Shown piece by piece: positions 9,108 to 64,000 of a stretch of 64,000 bases of DNA. This DNA is from Microbacterium proteolyticum (GTDB lineage Bacteria; Actinomycetota; Actinomycetes; Actinomycetales; Microbacteriaceae), in NCBI RefSeq assembly GCF_030818075.1, contig NZ_JAUSZZ010000001.1, positions 992,001 to 1,056,000 of the forward strand, given 5' to 3'. How positions within the stretch are numbered: the stretch's first letter is position 1; every line of letters starts with the position of its first letter. The position numbers were made by a program, and so were the translations under genes. The notes beneath the pieces are model-generated. The model ran no database searches, had not been told where the DNA came from, and saw only the letters and a program-made list of their open reading frames with translations.

Positions 9108-12080
9108 ATGAGATCGTCCGATTCCCGCCCGCCCCGAGCCGCACGGTTCTCGCGAGGGCTCGGCCTGTCGCTGACCGGCGTGCTCATCGCCTCCACGATG
9201 AGCCTGGTCGCGCCGGCGGCTCACGCTGCCGACGTCCCGACGCCGACGGCGCACTACGACATGTCGCACACGGGCACGACGCTGACCGACGTGTCCGGCA
9301 ACGGTCGCAACGCGTCGCTCACCGGCTTCACCGACGCGTCGTTCGCGGACGCCGCCGGCGACGCCGTGCTGCGCTTCAAGGCCGACGGCTACGCGGCCCT
9401 GCCGAAGGGCCTCGTCACCGGCACCGACAACGACTTCACCGTCGAGTACACCGTCTCGACGCAGACCTCCGCCAACCACTTCGGCTGGGTGATCGGCGAC
9501 GGGGTCGGGCCGTGGAACACCACGCAGCTCGGCAACCACATCTTCCTCAGCCCGCGCTCGGCGCAGGGCGGATACACCGACCAGGTGCTCGCGGCCATTC
9601 GCGTGAAGAACGGCAGCAGCAACGGCGAGAGCCGCATGCCGGCGGGCGGCGGGCTCAATCCCGGCTTCACCACGCTGACCATGGTCGGCGCGGGGAACAC
9701 GCTGACGCTCTACCGCGACGGCAGCGTCATCTCCACGCTCTCGCACACCAACGCGCTCAGCTCGATCATCCCGTCGGGCACCGTGCTGGGGTACCTCGGT
9801 CGTTCGCTCTACCAGGGTGACGCGCTGCTGCGAGCCGATGTCAGCGACGTGAAGTTCTGGGATTCGGCGCTGACCGCCGACCAGGTCTCGTCGAGCATGC
9901 CCACGGCGTCGCAGAAGTCCGCGACGACATCGGCGCTGCTGCGCGGCGACGTCCAGGCGATCATGCTGCGCGCCAACCCGTCCCTCGACAGCGTGTCGAG
10001 CGACCTCAACCTCGCGAGCTCGGTGAACGGCGTCGCCCTCACGTGGTCGTCGTCCAACCCGGCCGTGATCTCCAACACCGGTGTCGTCTCGCGCTCCATC
10101 ACGACGAACACCCCCGTCACCCTCACCGCCACGAGCTCGCTCGGGGTGTTGACCTACGACGTCATCGTCGTCGCGCCGAACGTCTCCACCGACCTGGATG
10201 CCATCTCCCTGGCATCCCGGACGACCGAGAACCTGCCGCTGGTCACGAAGGGCGCCGTCAACGGCGCGGCGATCACGTGGGCCTCGTCGGACGCGGCCCT
10301 GGTCACCCCGACGAAGGCCGATTACGCGGCGCAGGCGGTCGGCGCGGCCGACCCGTTCCGCGGCGGCGGAGTCGTGGCGCGTCCCGCCTATGGCGCGGGC
10401 GATGCGAAGGTCACGCTGACGGCCACGGCCACGCTCAACGGCCAGACCGCGCAGAAGAGCTTCGAGGTCACCGTGGCCGAGAAGGGGCGCTGGGCTCCGG
10501 ATGCCGGATACGCGGCGGCGTACTTCAAGTCCGACGGCGACGAGAAGATCTACCAGGCGGCCACGAACGGCAACGACTTCTTCTCGTTCTCGCCCGTCAA
10601 CGGCGGTCAGCCGGTCATCACCTCGACGACCGACACGAAGGGTCTGCGCGACCCGTACATCCTGCGGTCGAAGGACGGCGACAAGTACTACATGGTCGCC
10701 ACCGACCTCTGCATCAGCTGCGGCACCGGCTGGGGCCCCGCGCAGTCCGACGGCTCGCTGAAGATCGAGGTGTGGGAGTCCACCGACCTCGTGACGTGGA
10801 CGCGCACCAACGGCAAGAACGAGGGCATCACGATCAACCAGCCGGCGGCCGGCATGACCTGGGCGCCCGAGGCGTACTGGGACGATGCGCTGCAGTCGTA
10901 CGTCGTGCACTTCTCGTCGCGCCTGTACAGCAGTGCCTCGAAGACGAACTCCGACAACCTGCACGCCCGTGTCTTCTCCGTCCTGACGCGGGACTTCAAG
11001 ACGTTCACCTACCCGCCGACCGAGTGGCAGAACACCGGCTTCGCCCGTATCGACTCGACGGTGCAGAAGATCGGCGACTACTACTACCGCTTCACCAAGA
11101 ACGAAGAGGGTGGTGCGGCCGACGGCCTCGAGGCGGGCAAGGACATCTTCCTCGAGCGCTCCAAGGTCCTCACCGCCCCGACGACGCGGTCGAACTGGAA
11201 CGCCGACCCCGAGACGACCTGGCAGCTGACCGATACGAACATGACGGTGCCGGAGACGGGTCAGGCCGGTGAGGGGCCGCAGATCGTCAAGCTGAACGAG
11301 GGTGACCCGAACAACGCCGGGGGCGACGGCTACGCCTTCCTCGTCGACAACTTCGGGGCGGGCGGCTACCGCGCCTTCGTCACCACCGGGGCGGCCATCG
11401 CGAGCAGCTCGCAGGCCGATCGTCTGTCGCGTCGCGCGGACTGGAACGTGCGTCCGGTCGGCGGCCTGCCCGCCAGCCCCCGCCACGGCTCGTTCGTGAG
11501 CGTGAGCCAGTCGGTCCTCTCCGCGATGCAGGACTGGACGTCGGTCAAGGCGGTCGCCTCGACCACGACCCTCTCCCGGGACGGACGTACCGTCACCGCC
11601 GCCGTCGCCGCGGCCGACCGGGGCGATGTCGCCGGAACCGTCACCTTCTCGGGGGACGGATGGACGCAGACGGTGAAGCTCGATCAGCGCTCCGCGACGG
11701 TCGACGTGCCGGCGAACGTCCGCTCCGTGACCGCCCGATACGACGGGTACACCGACGGTCGCGTCACCGCATCCACCTCGGCGGCTCTGACGCTCGGCCT
11801 GCAGGTATCGGCCGTCGTCGCGAACCGCTGCGTGTCGGGCAAGGTGACGCAGATGGTGACGGTGACCAACAAGGATGCCGTCGCCGCCGACGTCACGGTG
11901 ACCAGCGCATTCGGGACGAAGCAGCTGACGCTGGCCGCGGGCAAGTCGGCGTCGACGGCCTTAGCGACGCGAGCGACGAGCGTCGAGGCGGGAACGGTCT
12001 CGATCGACGCCGTGGCCAGTGCGACGAAGGATGCCAAGACGTCATTCGCGGTGTCGGCACCGTCGGGCAGCTGCCGCTGA
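9108..12080 (+). CDS. Secreted LamG-GH43 glycosidase with C-terminal two-Cys module
   Basis: 990 residues. Signal peptide 1-41, LamG-like domain about 44-265, two Ig-like spacers (about 275-360 and 362-456), GH43 propeller about 460-800, an Ig-like domain rich in beta strands 815-895 and the shared module 902-990 (C908, C989). GH43 residues: D515 (LRDPY), D649 (RIDSTV), E722 (GEGPQIV), with WAPEAY and SPRHGS. The layout is that of the divergent neighbour, but sequence identity is modest, so they are likely old paralogues with different linkages. A pair of cysteines (CISCG, 535-539) near propeller blade 1 is not shared with the neighbour. Predicted role: extracellular release of arabinose or arabino-oligosaccharides. 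Confidence 0.88.
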   Translation: MRSSDSRPPRAARFSRGLGLSLTGVLIASTMSLVAPAAHAADVPTPTAHYDMSHTGTTLTDVSGNGRNASLTGFTDASFADAAGDAVLRFKADGYAALPKGLVTGTDNDFTVEYTVSTQTSANHFGWVIGDGVGPWNTTQLGNHIFLSPRSAQGGYTDQVLAAIRVKNGSSNGESRMPAGGGLNPGFTTLTMVGAGNTLTLYRDGSVISTLSHTNALSSIIPSGTVLGYLGRSLYQGDALLRADVSDVKFWDSALTADQVSSSMPTASQKSATTSALLRGDVQAIMLRANPSLDSVSSDLNLASSVNGVALTWSSSNPAVISNTGVVSRSITTNTPVTLTATSSLGVLTYDVIVVAPNVSTDLDAISLASRTTENLPLVTKGAVNGAAITWASSDAALVTPTKADYAAQAVGAADPFRGGGVVARPAYGAGDAKVTLTATATLNGQTAQKSFEVTVAEKGRWAPDAGYAAAYFKSDGDEKIYQAATNGNDFFSFSPVNGGQPVITSTTDTKGLRDPYILRSKDGDKYYMVATDLCISCGTGWGPAQSDGSLKIEVWESTDLVTWTRTNGKNEGITINQPAAGMTWAPEAYWDDALQSYVVHFSSRLYSSASKTNSDNLHARVFSVLTRDFKTFTYPPTEWQNTGFARIDSTVQKIGDYYYRFTKNEEGGAADGLEAGKDIFLERSKVLTAPTTRSNWNADPETTWQLTDTNMTVPETGQAGEGPQIVKLNEGDPNNAGGDGYAFLVDNFGAGGYRAFVTTGAAIASSSQADRLSRRADWNVRPVGGLPASPRHGSFVSVSQSVLSAMQDWTSVKAVASTTTLSRDGRTVTAAVAAADRGDVAGTVTFSGDGWTQTVKLDQRSATVDVPANVRSVTARYDGYTDGRVTASTSAALTLGLQVSAVVANRCVSGKVTQMVTVTNKDAVAADVTVTSAFGTKQLTLAAGKSASTALATRATSVEAGTVSIDAVASATKDAKTSFAVSAPSGSCR

Positions 12081-12373: not shown

Positions 12374-13012
12374 ATGAAGTTTTCCAAGGGTTTTGCTGCG
12401 CGTATCGCCGTGGCGACCGTGGGCGGCCTGGTGCTGATCGGAACGGCCGGTGCGGCCTCCGCGGCTGAGCAGGTCGGCGGTGAGGACGTCGACGTCAACG
12501 TCGACATCGCCGACACCGGAGCGGAGAGCCTGAGCCTGACCATCGCCGGCACGAAGGCGACGCTCGCAGAGACCGCGTCCGGCGTCGCCGACGTGCGTCA
12601 GTTCGACGGCACCCTCCCGACGGTCACCGTCACGGACACCCGCGACGTCGCCGACATCCCGGCGAACACGTGGTGGTACGTGACCGGCCAGGCGTCCGAC
12701 TTCGTCGGCCCCGACGGCGCCATCATCACCGCCGACCACTTCGGCTGGACCCCGCAAGCGGTCGACGACGGCGACACCGGTCTGATCGCCGTGGGCGACG
12801 AGGTCGGCACGTCCCTGGACTCCGGCCCGAACGCCGTCGGCCTCGTCGGCCAGGAGCTGCTCTACGCCTCCCTCGAGTCGGCGACCGTCCGCGAGAGCGG
12901 AGAGACGTCGTGGACGGCTGACGCCGCGCTGGTGCTGAAGACCGATGCCGGTGTCACCCCGGGTGCGTACACCTCCAAGCTGACCCTGTCGCTCTTCGAG
13001 GACGTGTTCTGA
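12374..13012 (+). CDS. WxL-like secreted surface protein
   Basis: 212 residues from ATG 12374, chosen because GGAG lies 6 bases upstream; ATG 12362 has no such site. Signal peptide 1-31 (AGAASA^AEQ), then a beta-rich mature part with GGEDVDVNVDI at its start, TWWYVTGQ in the middle and YTSKLTLSLFE at the end. The compact beta pattern, size and position next to a DUF916 gene and a small LPxTG gene match WxL proteins, which bind peptidoglycan non-covalently. The exact W-x-L residues are not perfectly kept, so this is WxL-like. In lactobacilli such sets (csc clusters) are linked to plant polysaccharide use, which agrees with the operator upstream. Confidence 0.62.
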   Translation: MKFSKGFAARIAVATVGGLVLIGTAGAASAAEQVGGEDVDVNVDIADTGAESLSLTIAGTKATLAETASGVADVRQFDGTLPTVTVTDTRDVADIPANTWWYVTGQASDFVGPDGAIITADHFGWTPQAVDDGDTGLIAVGDEVGTSLDSGPNAVGLVGQELLYASLESATVRESGETSWTADAALVLKTDAGVTPGAYTSKLTLSLFEDVF

Positions 13013-25153: not shown

Positions 25154-28072
25154 TCAGCCGCAGGACTTCGCGGCGTACGGGGCCGCGATCGTGGCCTTCG
25201 CCGCGCCCTGCGTCACCGCCGCGGTCGCCTCGCCCGCCGCGACAGACGTCGAGCGGGTGGCGAAGACGGCGGAGGTGGTGGCGCCCGCAGCGACGGTGGC
25301 GTTCTTCGAGCCGTACGCCGACGACATGGCGACGGATGCCGCGACGTCTCCGGTGTTGACGGCCTTGACCACGAGCTGCACCTTGCCGGCCACGCAGCGC
25401 GCTTCCGCCGTGTACTGCACCTTCACGAGCGAGCGCACGGTGACGGTGGCCTCGACCGGCATCCGCGAGTCGTCTTGAGCGACGCCCGAGACCGTGAACG
25501 TGCCCGGGGCGTTGTACTTCGCCGCATCCACGGCATCCCACTTCACGTCGACCGTCTGCACCGAACCGTCGGCCTTGGTCAAGCGGGCCTGGGGCAGCAC
25601 GGGCGCGGTGCCGGCATCGGTGGCGACGTCGATGGCATCCACGGTCTTCACCGCGATGTTCGGCGCGTACGCCTCGAGTACCTTCTGGTACTCGGCGCGG
25701 GTCACCGGGATGACGGTGCCGTGACGCGGTTTGCCGCCGTCGGCGTTCTGCGGCAGACCCTGACGGAGCTTGCTGCCCAGCGCCTGCCAGCTGCCGGCCT
25801 GATCGAGGTCGTTCGTGCCGAACGGCACGTAGTGGTTGGGCCCGCCGTGGTAGTTGGGCTGGTCGATGAAGAGGAACCAGTCGAGGTCGTTCACGTCGCC
25901 CTCATTGGCCGCGAAGATGTTCGCGCCCTCACCGCTGGAGTAGGTGCCACCCGGCTCGCCGTTGGGCAGGCCGCTGGCGACGCGCTCCTCGACGAGGGTC
26001 CACTGGTCGGCCGGTCCCGAGGTGCCGGGCAGCGTGCCCGAGATCGTCGCGAGCAGGTCGGTGGACTTCTCGTGGCGGATGGTCATGCTCGCCTCGTCCT
26101 TGGTGAAGCGGTGGTAGACGCCGTCCTTCTTCGCCACGGTCGAGTCGATGAGGCCCAGGCCGTTGCCGCGACGCACGTCGGACCACACCTTCGCGTCGGA
26201 GAAGGTGACGAAGTCGTCGGTGGTGGCGTACATCATGCGGTTGTAGGTGACGCCCGTGCGGTCAGCCACGTTGGTGGTCGGGTAGAGGTTCGACGCCCAG
26301 AACACCACGAAGGTGTCGAGCTCTTCGTCCCAGTACGCCTCGGGCGCCCAGGTGTTGCCGGCGAAGTCCGACGACACCTTGACGTGCCGCTGCTCCGACC
26401 AGCTCACGAGGTCGTCGGACTCCCAGACCTCGATGTATTTCGAGCCCGAGATCTGCGCGGTCGTGAAGCCGCCGGCGAGTCCCGCGACCTTGAGGTCGGT
26501 GGCGATCATGTAGAACTTGTCGCCGTGCGGGGCGCGGATGATGAACGGGTCGCGCAGACCCTCGGTGCCGACGGTGGAGCTGAAGATCGGCTTGCCCTGG
26601 TTGAGGGTGTTCCAGGTCAGTGCGTCGTTGCCCTTGGAGGCCGCGATGCTGACGCGCTCGGCGCCGTCGCCCTCGCCGGTGAAGAACGTCCAGAAGTACG
26701 CCTCGGTCTTCTGCGATCCGCCCGGCATGGGCTGGATGCGAGCGGTGAAGGTGCGGCTCGAGGTCGCCGAGCCGTTGGTGGCGGTGGCGGAGAGCTCGAT
26801 GTCGACGGCGGGCGAGCCCGCGGCCGGTCGCTTGACCTCGATGGTGCGCGAGTCGTCGCGGACGCCCGCGCGCAGCTCCGCGTTGGCCGCGCCCGCCGGA
26901 GCGATCGACCAGGCGATGCTCGAGCCCTCGGCGCCGGTGGTGGGCACCGAGAAGTTGCCGCGGATGTTGTCGAGGTTGCGGATCGACACGGCGGCGAGGT
27001 CGCGCGACACCTTCTCGGCGTCGGAGAGCTGCTGTGCGACCAGGACGGGGTAGGTCTGCGTGCGAGTGTCGGAGCCGACGGTGAAGGTCGCGGTGAGGGT
27101 CACCGCGGCGTCACCCGCACCGGCTGCCGGACGCGTCACCGTGGCGGTGCCGCCCGAGACGGCGATGGCGGCGTTGTCGGAGGCCCAGCTGACGGTCGCG
27201 CCGGCGCTGGTCGTGGGGACCGTGAAATCGGTCAGGGCCGTGGTCGGCACGCTCACGCCCGCGACGGCGCGGTCGAGCGCCTGCGCGTTGTAGAGCGACT
27301 TCACGTCGGCCTCGCTGAGCGCGGAGGCGTAGACGGCGTAGTCGTCGACGAGCCCGCTCCAGCCGGCGTCGTTGTAGGTGGAGCGACCGAGGTACGACAC
27401 CAGCGACGATCCGAACGAGGACACGTCGCGTGCGATGGCGTTCTGCGCGATGCGCGTGCCGTTGATGTAGACGCTCAGCTGGCCGGTGGTGCCGCTGATC
27501 ACCGTCGTGTAGAGGCTCAGCCCGGCCGGGGTGCGTGCGCCCGACGTCGCGGCGTTCGTCGCGCCGGGGCCGACCTCGGTGCCCCACGGGGCGCTCGCGT
27601 TGACGGAGTCGGTGACGACCGACTTGACGTAGCCGCTGGGATTGGCGGGGTTGAGCAGCCAGTAGCCCGACGAGAAGCTCGCGCCCGAGGCGACAGCGGC
27701 GCCGATGAAGGCCGCCGCGACGTTGCCGTTGCCCGAACGCGGCGAGAGCCACGTCGAGATGGTGAGGTCCTTCTTGCCGACGAGGCCCGCCGTGGGGATG
27801 TCGAGGTAGGCCGCCGTGTTGGCGGCGCCGCCCGGGAGCGACAGGCTGCCGCCGCTGATCGAGCCCCCGCTCTGGCGGAGCGTGCCGTTCCAGCTGTTTC
27901 CGCTGGAGTCGGCGGTCGTTCCGTCGTCGAAGGAGTAATGGAGGAGAGGCTGCGGCCCGGTGGCCGCCTGGGCGGCCGTCGCGGTGGCTCCCAGACCGGT
28001 CATCGAGAGGGTCAGCGCGGCCGTGACGGCCAGACCTTTCCTCCACAGGGGTGAACGTGTGCGCGTGCGCAT
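25154..28072 (-). CDS. Secreted LamG-GH43 glycosidase with C-terminal two-Cys module
   Basis: 972 residues from ATG 28072. The frame opens further upstream (to 28249), but the operator lies inside that stretch and MRTRTRSPLWRKG begins the signal peptide, with AAGGA upstream. Signal peptide 1-37, LamG about 42-262, two Ig-like spacers (265-450), GH43 propeller about 455-800, Ig-like 805-885, shared module 888-972 (C893, C971). GH43 residues: D508 (LRDPF), D643 (LIDSTV), E715 (GEGANIF), WAPEAY, KPRHG. Two cysteine-free middle domains resemble those of the 8684 protein. Predicted extracellular arabinan-active enzyme. Confidence 0.88.
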   Translation of the reverse strand: MRTRTRSPLWRKGLAVTAALTLSMTGLGATATAAQAATGPQPLLHYSFDDGTTADSSGNSWNGTLRQSGGSISGGSLSLPGGAANTAAYLDIPTAGLVGKKDLTISTWLSPRSGNGNVAAAFIGAAVASGASFSSGYWLLNPANPSGYVKSVVTDSVNASAPWGTEVGPGATNAATSGARTPAGLSLYTTVISGTTGQLSVYINGTRIAQNAIARDVSSFGSSLVSYLGRSTYNDAGWSGLVDDYAVYASALSEADVKSLYNAQALDRAVAGVSVPTTALTDFTVPTTSAGATVSWASDNAAIAVSGGTATVTRPAAGAGDAAVTLTATFTVGSDTRTQTYPVLVAQQLSDAEKVSRDLAAVSIRNLDNIRGNFSVPTTGAEGSSIAWSIAPAGAANAELRAGVRDDSRTIEVKRPAAGSPAVDIELSATATNGSATSSRTFTARIQPMPGGSQKTEAYFWTFFTGEGDGAERVSIAASKGNDALTWNTLNQGKPIFSSTVGTEGLRDPFIIRAPHGDKFYMIATDLKVAGLAGGFTTAQISGSKYIEVWESDDLVSWSEQRHVKVSSDFAGNTWAPEAYWDEELDTFVVFWASNLYPTTNVADRTGVTYNRMMYATTDDFVTFSDAKVWSDVRRGNGLGLIDSTVAKKDGVYHRFTKDEASMTIRHEKSTDLLATISGTLPGTSGPADQWTLVEERVASGLPNGEPGGTYSSGEGANIFAANEGDVNDLDWFLFIDQPNYHGGPNHYVPFGTNDLDQAGSWQALGSKLRQGLPQNADGGKPRHGTVIPVTRAEYQKVLEAYAPNIAVKTVDAIDVATDAGTAPVLPQARLTKADGSVQTVDVKWDAVDAAKYNAPGTFTVSGVAQDDSRMPVEATVTVRSLVKVQYTAEARCVAGKVQLVVKAVNTGDVAASVAMSSAYGSKNATVAAGATTSAVFATRSTSVAAGEATAAVTQGAAKATIAAPYAAKSCG

Positions 28073-28194
28073 GGTGGGCGTCCTTGCTCTCGAGGGACGC
28101 GAGACCGCATGTTCGGCCCGGGACGGCGACGTCACGAGCGCCGGACACGCGCCATCGCGGTCGGGGGTGGTCACTGAGCGATCAGTGGGTGCCT

Positions 28195-46000: not shown

Positions 46001-47197
46001 GCCCGCCAGCTGATCGAACGAGTACAGGAAGCGCTTCGGGTCGAGGGTGAGCAGCCAGTCGACCATCTTGGCGTTGCTGTTCTGCAGATACGGGTCGGTG
46101 ACGAGCACCTCGTTGAGGTCGGTGTCGTCGACGTAGATCGAGGTGGCGACACCCTCCTTCGGCACCGAGACCTGGAAGGTCTTGGTCCGCGGCGTGCTGC
46201 CGGCGTAGGTCGCCGACGCGGTGAGGGTGACGGTGGCGTCAGCGTCCTTCGGCCGGGTCACGCTCGCCTGGCCGCCGTCGACCGAGATCACGCTCGGCGC
46301 GGAGGAGGTCCAGGTGAAGGCCGTGCCGTTGGAGGCGGAGGTGGTGAGGCCGAAGCTGGTCGACGCGCTCGCCGGCACGGACAGCTGGTCGAGACCGCGC
46401 TGCGCGACGTCGGCCGGGTCGAAGGACGGGTTGTTCGCCTTGGTGAGAGCGACGACATCGGATGCCGAGGCGACGGCGTTGTAGAGGGTGTAGTCGTCGA
46501 GCGCGCCGCGGACGTAGGAGCCGTTGTACTGGGGGCCGTTGAAGCCGATGGACTTGGTCGTGGTGCTCTCGGACGTCAGCACACCGGTGGCGCCTCCGCC
46601 GATGGCGTTGGCGACGGAGGACACCTGCTGCTCGCCGTTGCGGTAGAAGATGACGGCCTTGGTCGCCGGGTCGTAGGTGACCACGACGTGCGTCCACTGG
46701 CCCGCCGGGAAGAACGCGTCACGCGAACCGTTGACCGCGACCTTGTAGGGCTGATCCGCGCCGGGGCCGATGGACAGCGCGAGCGGCGTGTTGCCGTTCT
46801 CGGAGCTCAGGTACCAGCCCGCCGAGTTGTAGACGCCCTTGTTCCAGGTGAAGACCTGCTCACCCGTGCCCATCGACTGTGCGGGCTTGAACCAGAACGA
46901 CAAGGTCAGCTTCTCGGGCTGCAGCGCGGCGCTCGTTCCGAGGCCGACCGCGTCGGTACCACGCAGGTTCAGCGCCTGGTCGTGGATGCCGGTGGTGTAG
47001 GTGTCCTGCCCTCTCAACATGGACGTCGCGATCTTGTGGGGACCGCCGTCGGTGAGATTGCCGTCGAAGCGGAGGTCGAGGACCTTGGCCGAGTCGAGGG
47101 TTGCTGCCGAGGCGGCGGTGGGGGAGATCACCGCCAATCCGCTGGCGATCATCATCGCGGTCGCGCTGAGCGCCACCGCTTTTCGAATGGGGAACAT
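43058..47197 (-). CDS. Secreted GH127/GH146-type beta-L-arabinofuranosidase with LamG and two-Cys module
   Basis: 1,379 residues; GAGAGGAA precedes ATG 47197. Signal peptide 1-32, LamG about 35-235, Ig-like spacer 255-350, then the (alpha/alpha)6 DUF1680 domain (about 360-900) with GGWERTTGARFQGHFFGHF, GGMNEALYELY, EGCNEYNMLKLTH and FWCDHGTATESFTKLGDSIYF, followed by beta domains, a cadherin-like strand set and the shared module (C1295, C1378). In the known GH127 enzyme HypBA1, zinc is held by Glu338, Cys340, Cys417 (nucleophile) and Cys418. E686, C688 and C755 fit the first three, but the fourth position is Asp (D756-H757). It should act on beta-L-arabinofuranosides such as those on hydroxyproline-rich glycoproteins. 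Confidence 0.85.
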   Translation of the reverse strand: MFPIRKAVALSATAMMIASGLAVISPTAASAATLDSAKVLDLRFDGNLTDGGPHKIATSMLRGQDTYTTGIHDQALNLRGTDAVGLGTSAALQPEKLTLSFWFKPAQSMGTGEQVFTWNKGVYNSAGWYLSSENGNTPLALSIGPGADQPYKVAVNGSRDAFFPAGQWTHVVVTYDPATKAVIFYRNGEQQVSSVANAIGGGATGVLTSESTTTKSIGFNGPQYNGSYVRGALDDYTLYNAVASASDVVALTKANNPSFDPADVAQRGLDQLSVPASASTSFGLTTSASNGTAFTWTSSAPSVISVDGGQASVTRPKDADATVTLTASATYAGSTPRTKTFQVSVPKEGVATSIYVDDTDLNEVLVTDPYLQNSNAKMVDWLLTLDPKRFLYSFDQLAGIPTTAQPYGGWERTTGARFQGHFFGHFVSALSQAYATETDEGRKAQLLAKLTTAVDGLAAAQAAYAQKDPSNSGYVAPFPVSYLPHGADGLIVPFYNLHKVLAGLLKAHQYAPKDVADKALSVASGFGSWLNVWGSRQANPSALLSTEYGGMNEALYELYSITENDQHKKAAELFDEVSLFQQLAANQDVLAGKHANTTIPKLVGALKRYTVLTDNPTLYARLTDAEKSNLDMYRRAAENFWQMVVNDHSYIGGGNSYSEHFQQPGTLHEFATNGITTGYGEQSTVEGCNEYNMLKLTHGLFRVSPDVKYADWYENTYINTILASQNPETGMMTYFQPQTAGYAKVFGRKEDEFWCDHGTATESFTKLGDSIYFRKGQSVYVNMFRSTEFSSAPQNLKLTQTADIPNTDTATFTVAALDGGTLAEGTTLRLRVPSWSPNPTLTVNGQTRDVAAATDKGYVVIPVAAGDTIAYKLPATVQVEAGTEDPNWVAFRYGPVVLSTELNRANVEATTPAGILVRMSAADKSVINSVRVGDVEGFKKDIEKNLVRQANGADNNGRTVMKFTLQNVDTASAALTFEPYYSMYNARYAIYMNLIQPDSAAAQALIKSEKEKLRVDETTTDALTSFDNNNSEAGKNYKFNRSSVGTWLGQQYRDGEMSAEAFFQYDMAVDPSAPKNYLGVRYFGGDNGRTFDVYINDVKLKSERVTNANGANSFYIQYDEIPASALADIAAKDRYKRDQAGNYVLDEKGNKIPIVTVRFQGTGASYVGGVYGVYTTTSTTYATDADLNALTFDGGTISPQLTDGTYGYTVTVPRDATTATFDADPATPSGLVYVGDILIDDTQKRTVALNADGSPTTLTLRALAQDHTTAKTYSIQIVRAAASAIKTEFSAATRCVSGKVTLTTTVKNTSTVPVSVEVTTAFGKKSVTSLAPGKSASQAFTTRQTSIPAGEASVTATGQVDGAPSTATQKAGYSARSCG

Positions 47198-47435: not shown

Positions 47436-47483
47436 GTCGGAACACGGACATGACCTCGACCAATGGTGGTTGGAAGGATCGCA

Positions 47484-50400
47484 ATGGAGCAGACCCTTTT
47501 CCGTCGCGCGCTCGCGGGCGTCACGACACTCACGCTCGCGCTGACCGGCGCACTCGTCGCCGCGCAGCCCGCTGCCGCGGCCGACGACCGGCTTGTCGCC
47601 TCCTACCCGCTGACGGAGACGAGCGGCACCGTCGCCGTCGACGTCTCCGGCAAGGGGCGCAACGCCGCCTACATGCAGGGGGCGACCCTCACAGGCGGTG
47701 AGGGCGTGCGCCTCGACGGCACCGACGACTACGTCGACCTGCCCGACAACCTGCTCGCCGGGCTCGACTCGATCACCATCAGCACCGACGTGCTGATCCG
47801 CGGCAACCAGGGCACGCCGTACTTCATCTACGGCCTCGGCAACACCGCGGGCGGGGCCGGAAACGGCTACCTCTTCTCGACGGGCAACTCGTACCGGACG
47901 TCCATCGCCACGGGCAACTGGCAGACGGAGCAGACCGCCAACAGCAACGCCGACCTGCAGCGAGACGTGTGGAAGACCATCACGTACACGCTCGACGACG
48001 CCACCGACACCGCGCGCATCTATCTCGACGGCACGCAGGTGGGCATGGCCACCGGAGTGACCACCAAGCCGAGCGCGATCGGAGGCGGGGTGACGACGGC
48101 GAACTACATCGGCCGTTCCGTGTACGACGCCGACCGACGCCTCGCGGGCAGCGTGCGCGACTTCCGCGTCTACAACGCCGCCCTCTCGGCATCCGAGGTG
48201 GCCGCCCTCGTCCCGACCGACGCCACGCGGCTGCAGCGGGATGCCGCGGCCCTCTCGCTCGGCGACCTGAGCGCCGTCACCGCCGACCTCGCCCTGCCCG
48301 CCACCGGCGTCAACGGCTCGGCCATCGCCTGGTCGACGAGCAACGCCGGCGTCGTGAGCGCGACCGGCAAGGTCACGCGTCCGGCTGCCGGTCAGCCCGC
48401 GGCCACCGCGACCCTCACGGCGAAGCTGACTCGCAACGCGGCCACCGAGACCAAGACCTTCGCGGTCACCGTCGCGCCCCTGCCGGGAAGCGCAGAACTG
48501 GCCAAGGCCGATCTCGACGCGATCAGCATCCCCAACGCGAGTGACGTGCGCGGCAACATCACGCTCCCCGCGAAGGGATCGGTCAACGGCACCGCCCTCA
48601 CGTGGTCGGCCTCGCCCGCCGGTGTCATCACGACCTCGGCGTCGGGTGGCAAGGCCGCGGGCGTCGTGACGCGCGGCGCCGCCGACACGAAGGTGACGCT
48701 GACGGCAGCGGCATCCGGAACCTCCGCCACCCGGCAGATCGAGGTGACCGTCAAGGCGGCACCCGTAGGCCTCGACAAGGACTACACGGCCGGCTACCTG
48801 TGGACGCACTTCGGCGTCGAGGGCGGCTACGAGAAGATCTTCTACGGCCACAGCACCGACGGTCTGCACTGGGAGAAGCTCAACGACAACCGGTCGATCC
48901 TCGCCAACCTCGGCGGCGACCTCGGCGTCCGCGACCCGCACCTCGTGCGCTCGCCCGAGGGCGACAAGTACTGGATCATCGGCACCGACCTGCACGCCGA
49001 AGGCGGCGGCGCGGGCGGCTCGGGCTGGGACCAGCTGAACGCCAGCCAGAACCTCGTCGTCTGGGAGTCCACCGACCTGGTGAACTGGAGCGACCAGCGC
49101 ATCGTCTTCGCGGGCTTCGACAAGGCCGGCTGCGTGTGGGCGCCCGAGGCCATCTATAACGAGGCCACCGGTGAGTACTACGTCTACTGGGCCGCGCGCG
49201 ACCAGACCGACAACAACACCCCGGACTGGGCGCTGCGCATGTACCTGACGAAGACCCGCGACTTCGTCACGTTCACCACGCCCGAGATCTGGACGACGAT
49301 GAACCCCAAGGGCGACGGCCAGGGCGGTCGCAACATCATCGACTCGACCATCGCCAAGGAGGGCGACACCTACTACCGCTTCTCGACCTCCGACTGGGAC
49401 ACGCTCGTCGACACAGCTCCGTCGCTCGACGGCCCGTGGACCCGCAAGATCGAGCCCGGACAGGCGGCCGCCGCGGGGCTCCGCACGCGCATGGAGGGCC
49501 TGACGGTCTACCAGCTGCCCGACGGTCGCTGGTCGGTCATGGGTGACGAATTCAACTACTACGGTCACATCGCCGACACGCTGTCGAGCCTGAAATTCCG
49601 TCAGCTCAGCAGCGGACCGGGTGCCGACCAGTTCTCGTTCGACCAGACCTTCCGTCACGGGTCGGTCCTGCGCCTGTCCAAGGCGGAGGAGGCGCGTCTG
49701 CTCGCCGCCTACGGCGACCAGCCGGTCACGCCGACCGATCCCGAGGAGCCGCAGCAGGGCCCGATCGCCGAGTACACCTTCGAGAACGGATCCCTCGCCG
49801 ACTCCGTCGGTGACGCCGACCTCACCGCGTCCGGCACGGCATCCATCGCGACGGATGCCGAGAAGGGCTCCGCCCTGCGCCTGACCGGAGCCACGGGTGG
49901 CTATGCCTCGTTCCCGACCGGCTTCTTCGACGGTCGCAACACCATGACGGTGTCGATGGACGTGAAGTCCGAGCGCACGAGCGGCAACTTCTTCACCTTC
50001 ACCTTCGGACAGAACCAGGACCGCTACTCGTTCCTGCGGGTCCGTGGTGACGAGGCCCGCAACGCCATCACGAAGGCGACGTGGCAGGGGGAGTCCGACG
50101 TCTCGGGCACCATCTCGAGCGGTCAGTGGCACAAATACGACCTCGTGTACGACGGCCGCATCATGCGCATGTACATCGACGGCGTGAAGGTCGACGAGAA
50201 CCTCGCGCTGAACGCCACGGTGAGCGAGCTCGGCTCGAACCTCGCCGGGTACCTGGGTCGGTCGTTCTACGGCGGAGACGGCTACTTCCAGGGCTGGTAC
50301 GACAACATCCGCGTGTACAACCGCGCGCTGTCGAGCACCGAGGTCCTGCAGAACGCGGGCGTCGAGGATCACTTGGTCGACGTCTCGCTGACGCAGCCCG

Positions 50401-51821
50401 AGAAGCTCAAGATGGCGCCGATCGTCGACAACGCGGCGCGCACGGTGAAGCTGCCGGTGGTCAAGGGCACCGATGTGTCGAAGCTCGCTCCGACCTTCAG
50501 CCTCGTCCCCGGGTCCACGGCGTCGCCGGCGTCGGGCACCGTGGTCGATATGCGCTCGCCCGTCACCTACACCGTGACGACCTCCACGGGCGCCAAGACG
50601 GAGTGGAAGATCGAAGCGCTCGTCGTCAACAGCCCCGTGCTGCCGGGCCTGTACGCCGACCCGAACATCGCGGTGTTCGGCGACACCTACTACATCTACG
50701 CGACGACCGACGGCTTCGACGGGTGGGGCGGCAAGGAGTTCTACGTCTGGAAGTCGAAGAACCTCGTCGACTGGACCCGCTCCGACAAGCCCTTCCTGAC
50801 GCTCGACGGAGCCAACGGCAACGTGCCGTGGGCGACGGGCAACGCGTGGGCGCCGACCATCATCGAGCGGGGCGGGAAGTACTACTTCTACTTCAGTGGT
50901 CACAACCCGACCTTCGATCGCAAGACGATCGGTGTCGCCATCGCCGACAGCCCCGAGGGGCCGTTCACGGCGGAGCCGAACGCGATGATCGTCAACAACG
51001 AGGCCGTCACCTCGGGACAGGCGATCGACCCGGCGGCGTTCCACGACCCGGTGACGGGCAAATGGTACCTCGGGTGGGGCAACGGCTCGCCCGTCCTGGC
51101 GGAGCTGTCCGACGACATGAAGTCGATCAAGCCGGGGACGTACCAGCGCATCAACGGTCTGACCGACTTCCGCGAGGGTGTGTTCTTCAACTACCGCAAG
51201 GGTCTGTACCACCTCACGTACTCGATCGACGACACCGGCTCCGAGAACTACCGGGTGGGCTACGCGACCGCGACCAGCATGAACGGTCCGTGGACGTACC
51301 ACGGGGTGATCCTCGAGAAGGACCTGTCGCTCGGCATCAAGGGACCGGCGCACAGCTCGATCATCAACGTGCCCGGTACGGACGACTGGTACATCGCGTA
51401 CCACCGGTTCGCGATGCCGAACGGCAACGGCACCAACCGCGAGACCACGATCGACCGGGTGCGCTTCGGTGCGGACGGCCTGATGCAGAAGGTCGTCCCG
51501 ACGCTCGAGAGCGTCGCGCCGCAGACGGTCCCCTCGCCGGGGCCGGAGATCACGGCGGCGGTGTCCACCCGGTGCGTGTCGGGCAAGGTCGTCCTCGCCG
51601 TAGCCGTCACCAACCGTGACGATGCGCCGGTGTCGGTCGCCCTCACGAGCGATTTCGGGTCCAAGACGGTCGCCTCCGTCGCCCCGGGCAAGACGACCAC
51701 GCAGAGCTTCACGGTTCGCCAGTCGTCGGTGCCGGCGGGAACGGTGACGGTCAAGGCGACCGACGCGGGCGGCGGGGCCACGAAGGTGAAGTCGCCCTAC
51801 AGCGCGCGGAACTGCGGCTGA
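47484..51821 (+). CDS. Secreted enzyme with two LamG and two GH43 domains plus two-Cys module
   Basis: 1,445 residues from ATG 47484 (GGAAGGA 5 bases upstream). Signal peptide 1-32, LamG-1 about 35-245, two Ig-like spacers (250-425), GH43-1 about 430-755, LamG-2 about 765-965, Ig-like 970-1050, GH43-2 about 1052-1345 and the shared module 1358-1445 (C1364, C1444). GH43-1 residues: D484 (GVRDPHL), D620 (IIDSTI), E671 (RMEGLTV). GH43-2: D1059 (YADPNI), D1182 (AIDPAAF), E1231 (FREGVFF). The two catalytic domains belong to different GH43 branches; the second resembles exo-alpha-L-arabinofuranosidases and xylosidases. The fusion probably couples two linkages on one substrate. Confidence 0.88.
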   Translation: MEQTLFRRALAGVTTLTLALTGALVAAQPAAAADDRLVASYPLTETSGTVAVDVSGKGRNAAYMQGATLTGGEGVRLDGTDDYVDLPDNLLAGLDSITISTDVLIRGNQGTPYFIYGLGNTAGGAGNGYLFSTGNSYRTSIATGNWQTEQTANSNADLQRDVWKTITYTLDDATDTARIYLDGTQVGMATGVTTKPSAIGGGVTTANYIGRSVYDADRRLAGSVRDFRVYNAALSASEVAALVPTDATRLQRDAAALSLGDLSAVTADLALPATGVNGSAIAWSTSNAGVVSATGKVTRPAAGQPAATATLTAKLTRNAATETKTFAVTVAPLPGSAELAKADLDAISIPNASDVRGNITLPAKGSVNGTALTWSASPAGVITTSASGGKAAGVVTRGAADTKVTLTAAASGTSATRQIEVTVKAAPVGLDKDYTAGYLWTHFGVEGGYEKIFYGHSTDGLHWEKLNDNRSILANLGGDLGVRDPHLVRSPEGDKYWIIGTDLHAEGGGAGGSGWDQLNASQNLVVWESTDLVNWSDQRIVFAGFDKAGCVWAPEAIYNEATGEYYVYWAARDQTDNNTPDWALRMYLTKTRDFVTFTTPEIWTTMNPKGDGQGGRNIIDSTIAKEGDTYYRFSTSDWDTLVDTAPSLDGPWTRKIEPGQAAAAGLRTRMEGLTVYQLPDGRWSVMGDEFNYYGHIADTLSSLKFRQLSSGPGADQFSFDQTFRHGSVLRLSKAEEARLLAAYGDQPVTPTDPEEPQQGPIAEYTFENGSLADSVGDADLTASGTASIATDAEKGSALRLTGATGGYASFPTGFFDGRNTMTVSMDVKSERTSGNFFTFTFGQNQDRYSFLRVRGDEARNAITKATWQGESDVSGTISSGQWHKYDLVYDGRIMRMYIDGVKVDENLALNATVSELGSNLAGYLGRSFYGGDGYFQGWYDNIRVYNRALSSTEVLQNAGVEDHLVDVSLTQPEKLKMAPIVDNAARTVKLPVVKGTDVSKLAPTFSLVPGSTASPASGTVVDMRSPVTYTVTTSTGAKTEWKIEALVVNSPVLPGLYADPNIAVFGDTYYIYATTDGFDGWGGKEFYVWKSKNLVDWTRSDKPFLTLDGANGNVPWATGNAWAPTIIERGGKYYFYFSGHNPTFDRKTIGVAIADSPEGPFTAEPNAMIVNNEAVTSGQAIDPAAFHDPVTGKWYLGWGNGSPVLAELSDDMKSIKPGTYQRINGLTDFREGVFFNYRKGLYHLTYSIDDTGSENYRVGYATATSMNGPWTYHGVILEKDLSLGIKGPAHSSIINVPGTDDWYIAYHRFAMPNGNGTNRETTIDRVRFGADGLMQKVVPTLESVAPQTVPSPGPEITAAVSTRCVSGKVVLAVAVTNRDDAPVSVALTSDFGSKTVASVAPGKTTTQSFTVRQSSVPAGTVTVKATDAGGGATKVKSPYSARNCG

Positions 51822-52942: not shown

Positions 52943-53377
52943 TCAGCCGCAGCTTCGCGCCGAATACGCTGCGGTCTTGCTCGTGGTGACGCGCGTGCCA
53001 TCGACGGTGGCGGTCGCGGTCGCAGTGATGGATCCCGCCGGGATGGACGCAGCGCGCTCGTAACTGACCGCTCTTCCCAGCCCAGTGGATCTCAGTCGCC
53101 CACGTGTTGCGGGGACGACATCGCCTTCGGGTCGATCGCGCGCTACGAGCTCCCCGCGAGGAATGGACGGACCGCGGTCAAATCTGCCCCGGGCTCTCCG
53201 ATCGGCAACGGAACCGTCGACGTCGCCGTCCCGTGGGCCTGAGGCCAGGACTTTTCGTTCTCGGGCGGCGGCAGCGGTGGCCGGCCCCGGGACGAGCGTG
53301 GCCGCGAGGGTGGCGACCGCGGCGAGGGCGAGAGCGCGCGCACCGTAACGGCGTCGGCGCGGCGGTGCCTGATGCAT
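52943..53377 (-). pseudogene. Decayed secreted-enzyme gene: signal peptide plus end of the two-Cys module
   Basis: ATG 53377 with GGGAGAAG upstream opens 144 codons. Residues 1-36 are a good signal peptide (ALALAAVATLAATLVPGPAT). The middle is Arg-rich nonsense in this frame, while another frame there reads HGTATSTVPLPIGEPGADL, which looks protein-like. The last ~40 residues (SIPAGSITATATATVDGTR ... AAYSARSCG) are the second half of the shared module, including the terminal Cys. So the catalytic part is missing through deletion and frameshift. Operator and terminator are still perfect, which suggests recent decay. Confidence 0.7.
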
Positions 53378-60097: not shown

Positions 60098-60146
60098 TTG
60101 CCACCCCATCCCGACTGCCCTAAAGTAACATCGAACCGGTTCGATG
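60098..60146 (+). promoter_or_regulatory. Promoter and perfect operator of the second regulon, for the 60183 gene
   Basis: TTGCCA (60098-60103), 17-nt spacer, TAAAGT (60121-60126), then the perfect 18-bp palindrome CATCGAACCGGTTCGATG (60129-60146). A further half-site TCGAACC follows at 60148-60154. The site covers the transcription start. Confidence 0.75.
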
Positions 60147-60182
60147 TCGAACCGCACATCTCAACGACGAGGAAGACACCCC

Positions 60183-63100
60183 ATGAGGTCATCTCCGCGG
60201 CTTGCGTCCTGCAGGCCCATCGCAGCAGTGACGGCGGGCTTGGCCGTCGCCGCTCTCGCCATCGGCCAGCCCGCCGTCCCCGAAGGTGCGCAGGCCGCCG
60301 CGACCACGGTCTCGGCTGCCGACCACCTGATCCTGGACTACGACTTCGAGGGGCAGAGTTCCGTCACGGCGACCGTGCAGGACACGTCGGGTGACGGACG
60401 CAACGGTGTGCTCACCAACCCCGCGTCCGCGCGGCTGGTCGACCGTGAGGGCGGCGGCAAGGCGCTCCAGCTCACGGGTGGGGCGCCCAACTCCACGACC
60501 GCGCCCTACATCACGGTGCCTGCCGGCCTGTTCGAAGACCTGCAGGGCACGACGATCTCGTCGTGGGTCAAGTGGGAGGGCAGCGACGTCTTCGAGTGGC
60601 TGTACGTGCTGGGCAAGGACCGCGACAGCGCCACGTTCTACACGCCGAAGTTCGAGGACGGCACGGCGCGCTCCAGCGCCAAGCCCACCGCCACCGGCCA
60701 GGAGATCGGCGCCCGCGCGACGACCCCTCTGCCCGCCGGCGAATGGCACCAGGTCACCACGACCATCGACAAGAACACCCTCATCTCCTACCTCGACGGC
60801 CTCGAGGTGAGTCGTACCGAGGTGGGGATCGACGTCGCGCAGGCGCTGTTCGGAGCGGGCTCGCCGAACTCGGGCTACATCGGACAGCCCTTCTGGACCG
60901 GCGTGCACCCCTTCTTCAAGGGATCGATCGACGATTTCCAGGTGTACGACACGGTTCTCACGCCGCAGCAGGTGCGGGATCTGGCGGGGTCGTCCGCTCC
61001 CGTGCCCACCGAGGTGCTCGAGAGCTCCACGCAGGTGCGCACGAACGTCGGCACGGCGCCGGCCCTCCCGGGCGTGCGCGCGCGGTTCAGCGATGGGCAG
61101 GAACGCCTCGCGCTGGTGAACTGGGACGACGTGCCTGCGTCGGCCTACGCGCAGCGCGGCACCTTCACCGTGAACGGCGTGGTCGACGGGACCGACACCG
61201 CCGTGACGGCGCGCGTGCGGGTCGTCACCCCCGGCGAGTTGTCCATCGACGCGGGGGAGCGCACCGGAGCCTTCATGGGCGGCGCATCGGGAACCCTTTA
61301 CGGGCTGTACGGCCCCGGTCTGCCCTCGAACAATCTGATCGACGGCATCCAGCTCCGTACCGTCTCGACGAAGGCGCAGGACGGCCCCCAGCACCCCGGC
61401 GCCGACGCGCTCGAGGTGGTCAAGCCGCTGGCGGACTCCTCCGACGGCGATGTCTACATCTACATGACGGACATCAACCGCGGGTTCCCCTATCAGGTGC
61501 CCGGGAACAACGGCGCGGAGAAGACCGCCTGGTACAAGCAGTCCGTCTTCGACCAGGCGAAGCAGGTCAAGCAGCTCCCCGCCGAATACCAGGACAACAT
61601 CGTCTTCGTGCCGTTCAACGAGCCCGAGGGCAACATGTACGGCGGGGGTGCGGAGAACTTCTGGGGCTACAGCTGGCTGGACAACCCCGACAAGTTCTTC
61701 GCCGCGTGGGACGACTTCTACCGGGCGATCAAGGCGGAGCTGCCGGATGCCCGCATCGCCGGTCCCAACACCAGCATCCTGTACAACCAGGTCGAGGGCT
61801 TCATGAAGCACGCCGTCGCCAACGACACCGTTCCCGAGGTCGTCACCTGGCACGAGCTGAGCAACCCGGCCACCATCCGCTCCAGCGTCGACCGGTATCG
61901 GACGTGGGAGAGAGGGTTCTTCGCGGGGACGAAGTGGGAGGGCACAGAGCTTCCCATCAACGTCAACGAGTACGCCTTCAACTACCACACGTCCGTGCCC
62001 GCGCAGATGATCCAGTGGATCTCCGCGATCGAGGACAGCAAGATCGACGCCGACATCGCCTACTGGAACATCGACGGCAACCTCTCCGACTCCGCCGTCG
62101 AAGCCAATCGCGGCAACGGCCAGTGGTGGCTGCTGAACTCCTACGGGAACATGACCGGCGACACCGTCCGCGTGACCCCGCCTCAGCCCGACGTGAGCTA
62201 CACCCTGCAGGGCGTGGCGACGATCGACGACGCCAAGAAGCAGGTGAAGGCACTCATCGGTGGCTCCACGGGGGCGCAGACCGTCTACGTCGACAACCTG
62301 CCGTCGTACGTCGGCGACAGCGCGCACGTGCTCATCCGCGACATCCGGTGGACGGGGCAGATCGGCGACTCCGCCGAGCCCCAGACGGTGAAGGAGTTCG
62401 AAGCTCCGGTGCGCGGCGGCACGGTCGAGCTCGGCTTCGGTGCGGGCGATCTGCCCGCGCTCGGCGCCGACTCCGCCTACGAGATCGTCGTCACTCCCGG
62501 CACCGACACCTCCTCGCCCTCGCAGCCCTCCGTGTCGTGGCGCGGCGTGTACGAGGCGGAGGCGGCCGGGCACACCGGTGCGCCGTATTACCTCAACGGT
62601 CCCGAGGGGTCGCCGGCCGACGTGGCGAAGTTCTACACCTCCGGCGAGCGAAACGTCGGCGGAATCGAGGGCAACTCCTCCCTGGCGCTGAACTTCGACG
62701 TCACGGTGCCCCAGGCCGGCACGTACGACCTGAGCGTCCTGGCGAATGCGTACAACAAGGAGGCGCGCAACGAGGAGCAGGGTCCGGTCAACATGTTCCT
62801 GCGCGTCAACGGCGGCGCCGAGCAGGAGATCTACGCCGACCTCGGCTACAAGTGGGTCGTCTGGGATCACACCGACACCAAGGTCGCCCTCAACGCCGGG
62901 AAGAACACGATCACCCTCGCGGCGCGCAGCCTCGACGGCACGAAGGCGACGAAGGGTGCCGCCATCATCGACAAGATCGATGTGACGCTGCCCAACGCGA
63001 ACTACACGCCCATCTACGAGGCCGAGAACGCCGTTCTCCACGACGCCACGGCGACCTACGACCGGGGCGGCGTGTCCGGCTCGGGTTCGGTGAACGTCGG

Positions 63101-64000
63101 CGCGAACCAGTCGGTCACCTTCTGGGTCTACAACAAGGACGACTCCGAGAAGTCGCTCGAGGTGAAGACTCTCGGCGGCGGTACGGGGACGGTCAAGGTC
63201 AACGGGAGCGAGATCGCCTCGGTGACCGACACCGCGACGATCCCGGCGTTCCTGGTGGGCGGTGTCAACAAGGTCGAGATCGTCGGCGCCACGGGGACCC
63301 TGGCCCTGGACCGCGTCTCCGTCGGCGCATCCGGGGGCAAGCTCGCCACGCAGTCCGTCGAAGCCGAAGCGGGCACGCTCAACGGCACCGCGCGGGTGCA
63401 GGACCTCTCGCTCGCGAGCGGGGGCAAGGCGGTCGTCGCCGTCGGCGGCGCCCAGAACAACGCCAACACCCTGACCCACAAGGTGACGGTGGAAGAGGCC
63501 GGCACGTACGCGATGACGGTGCGCTACTCCAACGAGGAGCAGTCGCCCGCCTCGCACTACAACCCCGATCCGGTGGCCCGCCGAGCCGACATCACGGTGA
63601 ACGGCGGACCCGTGCAGCAGGTGCTGTTCCCGCAGAGCTACAACGCCAACCAGTTCTGGGATCTCACCGTGCCGGTCCAGCTGAAGGCCGGAGAGAACAC
63701 CGTCACGTTCGCGTCGAAGGAAGCGCCGGACTTCAACGGCCGGACCTTCATCTCGGAGCGGTACCCGACACTGGGGCTGCGGTCGCAGTGGGCGCCCAAC
63801 CTGGACAAGCTCACCTTCACGGCGCTGAAGCCGGCGGCCGCAACTGCGGCCCTGAAGGTGGATGCCACGGCCTCCACCCGCAAGATCGGCGGCAAGGCGT
63901 ACGTCACCGTCACGGCGGTGAACCGTTCATCGGTGCCGGTGCAGATCGAGGTCGTCACGGCGTACGGGAAGAAGACGTTCGCCGAGGTCAAGCCGAACCA
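60183..64000 (+). CDS. Large secreted LamG/clan GH-A/CBM protein, 3' end outside window
   Basis: ATG 60183 (GAGGAAG upstream); open for 1,272 codons to the window edge. Signal peptide 1-38, LamG about 48-275, Ig-like 285-360, then a TIM-barrel-like domain about 365-690 with PFNEPEGNMYGGG (acid/base candidate E480) and INVNEYAF (nucleophile candidate E596), the layout of GH39-like clan GH-A enzymes. It continues with CBM35/CBM6-like modules beginning YEAEAAG (about 785), YEAENAV (about 945) and VEAEAGT (about 1060). The last ~40 residues begin the shared C-terminal module, but with RKIGGK where the others have RCVSGK. Control by the second LacI is suggested by the perfect operator upstream. 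Confidence 0.82.
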   Translation, partial: MRSSPRLASCRPIAAVTAGLAVAALAIGQPAVPEGAQAAATTVSAADHLILDYDFEGQSSVTATVQDTSGDGRNGVLTNPASARLVDREGGGKALQLTGGAPNSTTAPYITVPAGLFEDLQGTTISSWVKWEGSDVFEWLYVLGKDRDSATFYTPKFEDGTARSSAKPTATGQEIGARATTPLPAGEWHQVTTTIDKNTLISYLDGLEVSRTEVGIDVAQALFGAGSPNSGYIGQPFWTGVHPFFKGSIDDFQVYDTVLTPQQVRDLAGSSAPVPTEVLESSTQVRTNVGTAPALPGVRARFSDGQERLALVNWDDVPASAYAQRGTFTVNGVVDGTDTAVTARVRVVTPGELSIDAGERTGAFMGGASGTLYGLYGPGLPSNNLIDGIQLRTVSTKAQDGPQHPGADALEVVKPLADSSDGDVYIYMTDINRGFPYQVPGNNGAEKTAWYKQSVFDQAKQVKQLPAEYQDNIVFVPFNEPEGNMYGGGAENFWGYSWLDNPDKFFAAWDDFYRAIKAELPDARIAGPNTSILYNQVEGFMKHAVANDTVPEVVTWHELSNPATIRSSVDRYRTWERGFFAGTKWEGTELPINVNEYAFNYHTSVPAQMIQWISAIEDSKIDADIAYWNIDGNLSDSAVEANRGNGQWWLLNSYGNMTGDTVRVTPPQPDVSYTLQGVATIDDAKKQVKALIGGSTGAQTVYVDNLPSYVGDSAHVLIRDIRWTGQIGDSAEPQTVKEFEAPVRGGTVELGFGAGDLPALGADSAYEIVVTPGTDTSSPSQPSVSWRGVYEAEAAGHTGAPYYLNGPEGSPADVAKFYTSGERNVGGIEGNSSLALNFDVTVPQAGTYDLSVLANAYNKEARNEEQGPVNMFLRVNGGAEQEIYADLGYKWVVWDHTDTKVALNAGKNTITLAARSLDGTKATKGAAIIDKIDVTLPNANYTPIYEAENAVLHDATATYDRGGVSGSGSVNVGANQSVTFWVYNKDDSEKSLEVKTLGGGTGTVKVNGSEIASVTDTATIPAFLVGGVNKVEIVGATGTLALDRVSVGASGGKLATQSVEAEAGTLNGTARVQDLSLASGGKAVVAVGGAQNNANTLTHKVTVEEAGTYAMTVRYSNEEQSPASHYNPDPVARRADITVNGGPVQQVLFPQSYNANQFWDLTVPVQLKAGENTVTFASKEAPDFNGRTFISERYPTLGLRSQWAPNLDKLTFTALKPAAATAALKVDATASTRKIGGKAYVTVTAVNRSSVPVQIEVVTAYGKKTFAEVKPN

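Follow-up and report, generated by a model that had tools for sequence, protein, structure and literature searches.

Introduction

Surface enzyme complexes are known mainly from anaerobic cellulosome bacteria, in which dockerins, small modules common to many enzymes, assemble these enzymes on a scaffold. In Bacteroidota, the type IX secretion C-terminal domain is a conserved Ig-like module that ends many secreted enzymes. The closest described systems for the present work are the csc clusters of Firmicutes, in which a small WxL protein, a DUF916 protein with a transmembrane (TM) segment, a large protein with a terminal WxL domain and sometimes a ConA-like domain, and an LPxTG protein stand together, as set out in the consulted parts of PMC1534035, PMC9772566 and PMC10599100. 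A further paper, in the part consulted, lists DUF916 proteins among the gene neighbours of a different family (PMC12537917). Here we analyse a 64,000-nucleotide stretch of the Microbacterium proteolyticum genome (hereafter the window), in which secreted polysaccharide-degrading enzymes end in a common module of ~90 residues with two cysteines, and in which one of these enzymes is followed by genes for a small WxL-like and a WxLIP-like protein. From sequence comparisons we interpret the module as an extracellular domain by which the enzymes dock on a csc/WxL-like surface complex of actinobacteria, a reading to which we would give a probability of about 0.55.

Compared with csc clusters (CscA, DUF916-TM; CscB, small WxL; CscC, large WxL; CscD, LPxTG), the loci described here have in common, in a similar gene neighbourhood, a WxLIP-like membrane protein, a small WxL-like protein and sometimes an LPxTG protein. 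Large secreted proteins with ConA-like (LamG) domains occur in both systems, ending here in the module as a putative attachment domain, and plant polysaccharide use is proposed for both. They differ in that many separate hydrolases share here a two-cysteine, non-WxL module, that the WxL-like protein carries no dual W-x-L motif, that no DUF3324 match was found and that the hosts are high-GC Actinomycetota. Like the large WxL domain (WxL2) of CscC, the module is a C-terminal domain of large proteins in such clusters and may attach them to the surface; it differs by its two cysteines, by the lack of W-x-L motifs and of profile similarity to the local WxL-like family, and by its length, since large WxL domains have 130-140 residues (PMC1534035, consulted part). 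We thus propose a csc-like way of working without filing the system as a csc member, because the attachment family is a different one without Pfam entry, the WxL motif test failed and DUF3324 was not found.

Results

The module and its paired cysteines

The original prediction, made from the window alone, described a C-terminal two-cysteine module on all the secreted enzymes between positions 11805 and 63999. The shared module does exist, and the predicted number of copies was exact: eight complete, one remnant and one cut by the window edge (Table 1). The proposed interval leaves out one complete copy (5742-6008). A profile was built from seven of the eight complete copies, whose alignment has 11 invariant columns. 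In the 3.77 Mb source genome it matched 13 full copies, with E values from 3.9e-37 to 3.9e-20, and a single remnant at E 5.6e-6, an additional match at E 0.185 being left out of the count. The consensus runs from R-C-V-A-G-K through a V-x-V-x-N strand, [YF]-G-x-K, A-P-G-K, F-T-T-R, A-G and Y to a C, often with one residue more.

We first considered the two cysteines, one at each end, in 85 different modules, each 80 residues long or more, taken from genome-search loci and not seeded on the first cysteine. Both were present in 79, neither in 6 and a single one in none; L085 was classed among the two-cysteine modules since its terminal cysteine was found in its tail. A second set of 137 named modules gave a similar profile (both in 132, neither in 5, single in none). 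It is biased, because its seeding pattern held the first cysteine, which also affects alignment columns 8-14, and it overlaps with the first set, so that the counts are not additive. Cysteines kept or lost as a pair are expected of an intra-domain disulfide, which probably closes the module from end to end. The predicted terminal cysteine thus holds for most copies and fails for the 60144 protein (the partial 60183 protein of the original prediction), which lacks both cysteines when read beyond the window edge (TRKIGGK ... YNAQQ-stop).

The module ends at most three residues from the stop codon in 83 of 85 cases. The exceptions are an internal copy in a relative (L095), followed by 97 residues, and an N-terminal copy of the source genome, the only one seen, which lies right after the signal peptide of a protein judged by eye to be ricin-lectin/metalloprotease-like (G000:C1:648086; L021, 647798-649267). 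The C-terminal place predicted for the module is therefore the rule and not an obligation. The frequent position before the stop would suit a signal at the C-terminus for secretion or sorting, recognised by some unknown enzyme of export or anchoring. The N-terminal and internal copies make this scarcely credible; moreover, 55 of 70 carriers have a signal-peptide-like start according to a crude hydrophobic-stretch test that leaves the other starts unresolved.

We then examined the charge. In the named and window modules, net charge per 100 residues was +2.75 for the module and -4.84 for up to 700 residues preceding it, and the module was above its own enzyme in 130 of 130 cases. Basic residues occupy columns 8, 13, 39 and 57 in 80-91% of the 85 modules, while the acidic share reaches at most 57% in any column. 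Aromatic residues are few, tryptophan being absent from 124 of 137 modules. Such conserved basic columns are left unexplained if the module is a passive structural cap, a disulfide-closed end that shields long secreted enzymes from proteolysis. The end-to-end cysteine pair and the terminal position would suit such a cap, yet natural copies without cysteines (6/85) and the linkage to WxL/WxLIP genes described below also argue against it, and we hold it to be highly improbable.

Small WxL-like and WxLIP-like proteins

In the window, the module enzyme at 9108-12080 is followed by the small WxL-like gene and then by the WxLIP/DUF916-like gene. The product of the latter scored 19.5 bits against PF06030 (E 0.0011), under the cut-off of 27.3. 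Among 120 listed homologues, 11 carry PF06030, for example P0048 with 53% identity, and the names given to several read 'WxL protein peptidoglycan domain-containing' or DUF916. Judged by these homologues, the protein appears to have a WxLIP first domain (DUF916, PF06030); its C-terminal TM helix was recognised by eye. DUF3324, the second WxLIP domain, was absent from its matches up to E 10. For the 12374-13012 protein, no Pfam match was obtained up to E 10; some of its homologues are named WxL domain-containing in UniRef, and its gene position and size fit a small WxL.

These proteins are acidic. Charge per 100 residues was -13.6 for small WxL (n = 21), -8.7 for the WxLIP ectodomain (n = 13) and -6.2 for the WxL domain of the large class (n = 9), so that the negative charge of small WxL is about double that of the WxL part in large proteins. 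An LPxTG protein was found in 3 of 10 WxLIP loci with a strict pattern and, with a looser one, in four of 14 (L197, L203, L206 and L207); none lies beside the window WxLIP-like gene. In L206 and L207 the LPxTG-type protein comes directly after WxLIP, like CscD in Firmicutes csc clusters.

Co-occurrence and adjacency with WxL-like genes

The check suggested with the original prediction, a search of actinobacterial genomes with a profile of the module, was run on 297 genomes of the order and gave 41 positive genomes, the source genome among them (E <= 1e-6). Small WxL was found in 25 of these 41 and in 1 of the 256 others (Fisher p 1.7e-24, kinship ignored), the genomes with small WxL spanning seven family groups. 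WxLIP-like proteins followed the same tendency (33/41 versus 38/256; p 7e-17, kinship ignored). The 'small' class holds 49 of 84 listed WxL matches and was set by hand from match start and score, since the length of open frames is inflated in high-GC DNA. Possession of GH43 enzymes does not account for the co-occurrence: when the comparison is confined to GH43-positive genomes (match at E <= 1e-10, non-secreted enzymes included), small WxL is present in 21 of the 34 that have the module and in 0 of the 122 that lack it. With the modules per genome capped (17 scored), 18 of 19 genomes with three or more scored modules have small WxL, as do 7 of 22 with one or two.

The genes are also adjacent. 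In the named loci, a WxL-like gene lies directly 3' of a module gene on the same strand in 18 of 21 cases: 15 by a gap rule, plus L102, L148 and the window, where the open frames overlap the module gene and the proteins start after it. Across the 297 genomes, a module precedes at least 25 of 49 small WxL matches by no more than 500 bp, all adjacency figures for this set being minimum values. A comparison of 27 listed WxLIP places with the modules showed that 18 lie 0.7-1.25 kb after one. Beyond Micrococcales, modules adjoin WxL in a Glycomyces (L137, Glycomycetales) and in a metagenome-assembled genome (MAG) of Propionibacteriaceae (L164, Propionibacteriales). The set may also head a run, in the order WxL, WxLIP, LPxTG and three module enzymes (L207) or WxL, WxLIP and three module enzymes (L208). 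In G585, at least four small WxL genes each lie within 500 bp after a different module gene.

The enzyme that precedes WxL varies. Of 18 such enzymes, 17 could be judged (L103, with 19 residues of body, remained unplaced), and grouping at 35% identity over 60% of the length divided them into seven groups. These represent at least four kinds, namely GH127, GH43 types, enzymes of the 60144 type and L105/L110, which have no window counterpart. Thus what recurs from locus to locus is the module with WxL and WxLIP, and not one particular enzyme.

WxLIP loci without modules

Nine module-less WxLIP loci were picked, not at random, among high-scoring WxLIP matches: eight in module-less genomes and the second copy of the source genome. 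In eight of the nine (L196 and L198-L204, L203 having two), a larger open frame (489-843 aa) terminates in the WxL-like domain. In the source genome itself, the second WxLIP-like gene (L196, G000:C1:3717657-3720793) lies beside a 654-aa frame ending in a WxL-like domain, with no module nearby. By contrast, in four module loci viewed in the same way (L206-L209), WxL is small and accompanied by one to three enzymes with modules. This split is expected if the module replaces the fused WxL domain and many enzymes share a holder.

The ninth locus (L197, genome G496, G496:C1:18000-32000) has a small WxL as acidic as the others. Three genes upstream of it, a 1307-aa open frame (10078-14001, minus strand) ends in two tandem stretches of ~75-80 aa, each opened and closed by a cysteine, the last finishing in VTCD-stop. 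These stretches are perhaps a second kind of docking end.

Comparison with known domains

The original prediction would have been overturned by a known carbohydrate-binding module (CBM). Checked against Pfam, 129 modules gave weak matches and no clear family. CBM_35 matched 12 of them (best E 0.0013) and CBM_6 one, and no clear match to a Pfam CBM profile was found in this set. CBMs are often located at the ends of carbohydrate-active enzymes, as is the module (carriers match GH43, GH127, GH95, GH62, GH59, GH30 and CE2), and it could in principle bind a plant substrate such as pectin, arabinan or arabinogalactan protein. Near-absent tryptophan, the sharing of one module among GH127, GH43 and other enzymes and the fact that many carriers already have LamG, CBM_4_9, CBM_6, CBM_35 or F5/8 domains make a CBM distinctly improbable. 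The substrate binding considered in the original prediction is hence disfavoured, at least in its classical form. A CBM2-like identity, CBM2 having an end-to-end disulfide, was dropped as well, since no such family was among the matches listed and tryptophan is almost lacking.

CARDB (15/129 at E <= 0.1, best 3.2e-4), PLipase_C_C (22/129 at E <= 0.1) and designed Ig proteins (8bl3 scIg12, E 4.3e-4 over module profile positions 18-56) gave weak hints of an Ig-like fold. The module is probably an Ig-like beta-sandwich, and its weak similarity to CARDB and PLipase_C_C would reflect this shared fold; it differs from them in that a minority of the modules match. Neither dockerin nor WxL was among the Pfam families listed for the module (25 of 44 families). 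The module also differs from dockerins by its proposed WxL/WxLIP-like partner instead of cohesin, and from the type IX C-terminal domain by its Actinomycetota hosts and by not being obligatorily C-terminal. Two further identities were rejected: a divergent WxL domain (hhalign probability of 0.3% against the local WxL-like family) and a divergent WxLIP domain (no profile similarity to the WxLIP-like family).

Weighing of the docking interpretation

Several observations weigh against docking on WxL/WxLIP. One module is N-terminal and another internal, the dual W-x-L motif is present in none of 21 WxL-like proteins, and the module has no profile similarity to either the WxL-like or the WxLIP-like family. 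The charge contrast is weak taken alone, because enzyme bodies and WxL are both acidic. Seen from the module, WxL is directly next in only 15 of 128 module genes (gap rule, at least 1.2 kb downstream), and the source genome has one small WxL for 13 modules. Such rare adjacency is expected if one holder serves many enzymes, and also if the rest are untied. A small WxL match is missing from 16 of the 41 module genomes, including G034 with three modules, and a WxLIP match from 8. In this respect, the single-protein WxL search missed large WxL domains that a profile found in five genomes, so a diverged small WxL could escape too. The reverse case is G496, with small WxL, WxLIP and LPxTG and no module match. 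Finally, presence of a module was the ground on which the named loci were selected, so that adjacency by chance is more likely in them, and the co-occurrence statistics ignore phylogeny. Any docking model must still account for the module genomes that lack small WxL (G034 and 15 others), for the N-terminal copy and for G496.

The missing small WxL and the majority of module genes not beside WxL would suit direct binding of the module to peptidoglycan or to an anionic polymer of the wall (of teichoic or teichuronic type), WxL/WxLIP being a separate surface device of the same habitat. Conserved basic residues and positive charge agree with this explanation. It leaves aside, however, the absence of small WxL from all 122 GH43-positive module-less genomes and the WxL genes lying directly after module genes, and we consider it possible though unlikely. 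We therefore retain docking on a WxL/WxLIP-like complex as the preferred interpretation. Of the common functions envisaged in the original prediction, docking and wall retention are those favoured by gene order and co-occurrence, and secretion sorting is disfavoured by the N-terminal copy.

Carrier enzymes and genomic context

Carriers in the window are secreted GH43-type, double-GH43 and GH127-type enzymes with LamG and bacterial Ig-like domains, and one LamG/CBM_35 protein (Table 1). No LPxTG end was found in the window with the strict pattern; its enzymes terminate in the module, in line with the predicted lack of such an anchor. In the GH43 enzyme split in two frames, the LamG part (30973-31840) and the catalytic part (inside 28524-31052) were searched apart. 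This enzyme and the module remnant point to gene loss in the cluster.

Table 1. Positions of modules, carrier enzymes and WxL-related proteins in the window
Feature	Position	Strand	Module or remark	Basis
Module	5742-6008	-	C-terminus of GH43-like enzyme, open reading frame (ORF) 5739-8684	profile
Secreted GH43-like enzyme, aBig_2 domains	9108-12080	+	module-terminated	
Module of 9108 enzyme	11805-12077	+	directly 5' of WxL-like gene	profile
Small WxL-like secreted protein, 212 aa	12374-13012	+	strongly acidic, candidate docking partner	
WxLIP/DUF916-like protein, 375 aa	13133-14260	+	C-terminal TM helix	by eye (helix)
LamG + GH43-like enzyme	25154-28249	-	module 25157-25420	
GH43 enzyme in two frames	28524-31840	-	module 28527-28787	
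LamG + GH43 enzyme	31844-34756	+	module 34487-34753	
LamG + GH43 enzyme	38096-41962	+	module 41681-41959	
GH127-type enzyme (beta-L-arabinofuranosidase family)	43058-47197	-	module 43061-43339	
Double LamG + double GH43 enzyme	47463-51821	+	module 51549-51818	
Module remnant	52946-53092	-	end of decayed gene	profile positions 56-89
LamG + Big_4 + CBM_35 secreted protein	60144-64000	+	module from 63858 past window end	

Beyond the window, carriers of the source genome comprise two GH43 enzymes, of which one has two F5/8 domains, as well as a further enzyme with an F5/8 domain and the N-terminal-module protein already mentioned. Both ORFs matched by an exploratory F5/8 type C search carry the module. 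So do 9 of 10 GH43 ORFs, the tenth (L181) being without signal peptide by eye. The claim that all secreted enzymes bear the module thus stands for GH43 in this genome and does not extend to every secreted protein, as shown by a secreted LamG protein without it (L224). A Pfam scan of 60 of 62 chosen non-window, full-length named carriers (31 + 29) identified GH43 in 32 and GH127 in 5, with one match each to GH95, GH62, GH59, GH30 and CE2.

Module genes neighbour an L-arabinose isomerase, an FGGY kinase, a sugar ABC transporter, LacI-type regulators and a solute-binding protein, which gives the appearance of an arabinose-polysaccharide locus. An ArsP_1 permease and DUF1980 pair lies amid the module enzymes (34816-36616, + strand). 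Elsewhere in the genome, a type I signal peptidase appears by eye to be fused to a LamG domain (L216, G000:C1:888641).

The module occurs in 19 of 58 near relatives (E <= 1e-4), with up to 19 copies in one genome, and in 6 of 396 genomes of a phylum sample, all of the same family. The 77 loci recovered by the named scan come from Microbacterium, Agromyces, Rathayibacter, Frigoribacterium, Promicromonospora, Glycomyces, Tessaracoccus, MAGs of Propionibacteriaceae, Naasia and others. A protein search with one module returned 7 proteins, of which the three bearing a species name are from Microbacterium.

Discussion

In the model that we propose, polysaccharide-degrading enzymes would be exported and then folded, with the module as their last domain. 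The cationic module would dock them non-covalently on an acidic complex at the wall, through either of its two proteins. This holder would consist of the small, very acidic WxL-like protein and the membrane-anchored WxLIP/DUF916-like protein, joined in some loci by an LPxTG protein. By analogy with Firmicutes, the WxLIP-like protein is predicted to bind both WxL and peptidoglycan (PMC10599100, consulted part) and could so attach the whole to the wall. GH43, GH127 and other enzymes would thereby stay on the cell near sugar importers, which would take up their products. In function the module would correspond to the large WxL domain that ends CscC, without being one.

A wider proposal is more tentative, falling somewhat short of even odds: in Actinomycetota (Microbacterium, Agromyces, Rathayibacter, Promicromonospora, Glycomyces and Propionibacteriaceae), a cellulosome-like surface system may exist in which many hydrolases are plugged, via one two-cysteine module, into a WxL/WxLIP holder, docking having been split off from the WxL domain.

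A literature search of titles and abstract starts, with subscription papers and preprints outside its range, returned no description of the module or of WxL-linked hydrolases in Actinomycetota, and the module is not mentioned in the consulted part of a study on Microbacterium D-arabinanases (PMC10509167). New here is the likely WxL-like/WxLIP-like partner for the module. A multi-copy domain outside any Pfam family is thus supplied with a description and a prediction, which bear on a general question: by what means soil and plant bacteria other than Bacteroidota retain what their secreted hydrolases release. If the docking interpretation is true, Actinomycetota would gain a surface-display system made of a shared docking module and a WxL-type holder, the scarcely understood WxL/WxLIP proteins would acquire a testable biochemical role, and the module would provide a new modular tag for enzyme display on aerobic Gram-positive cells.

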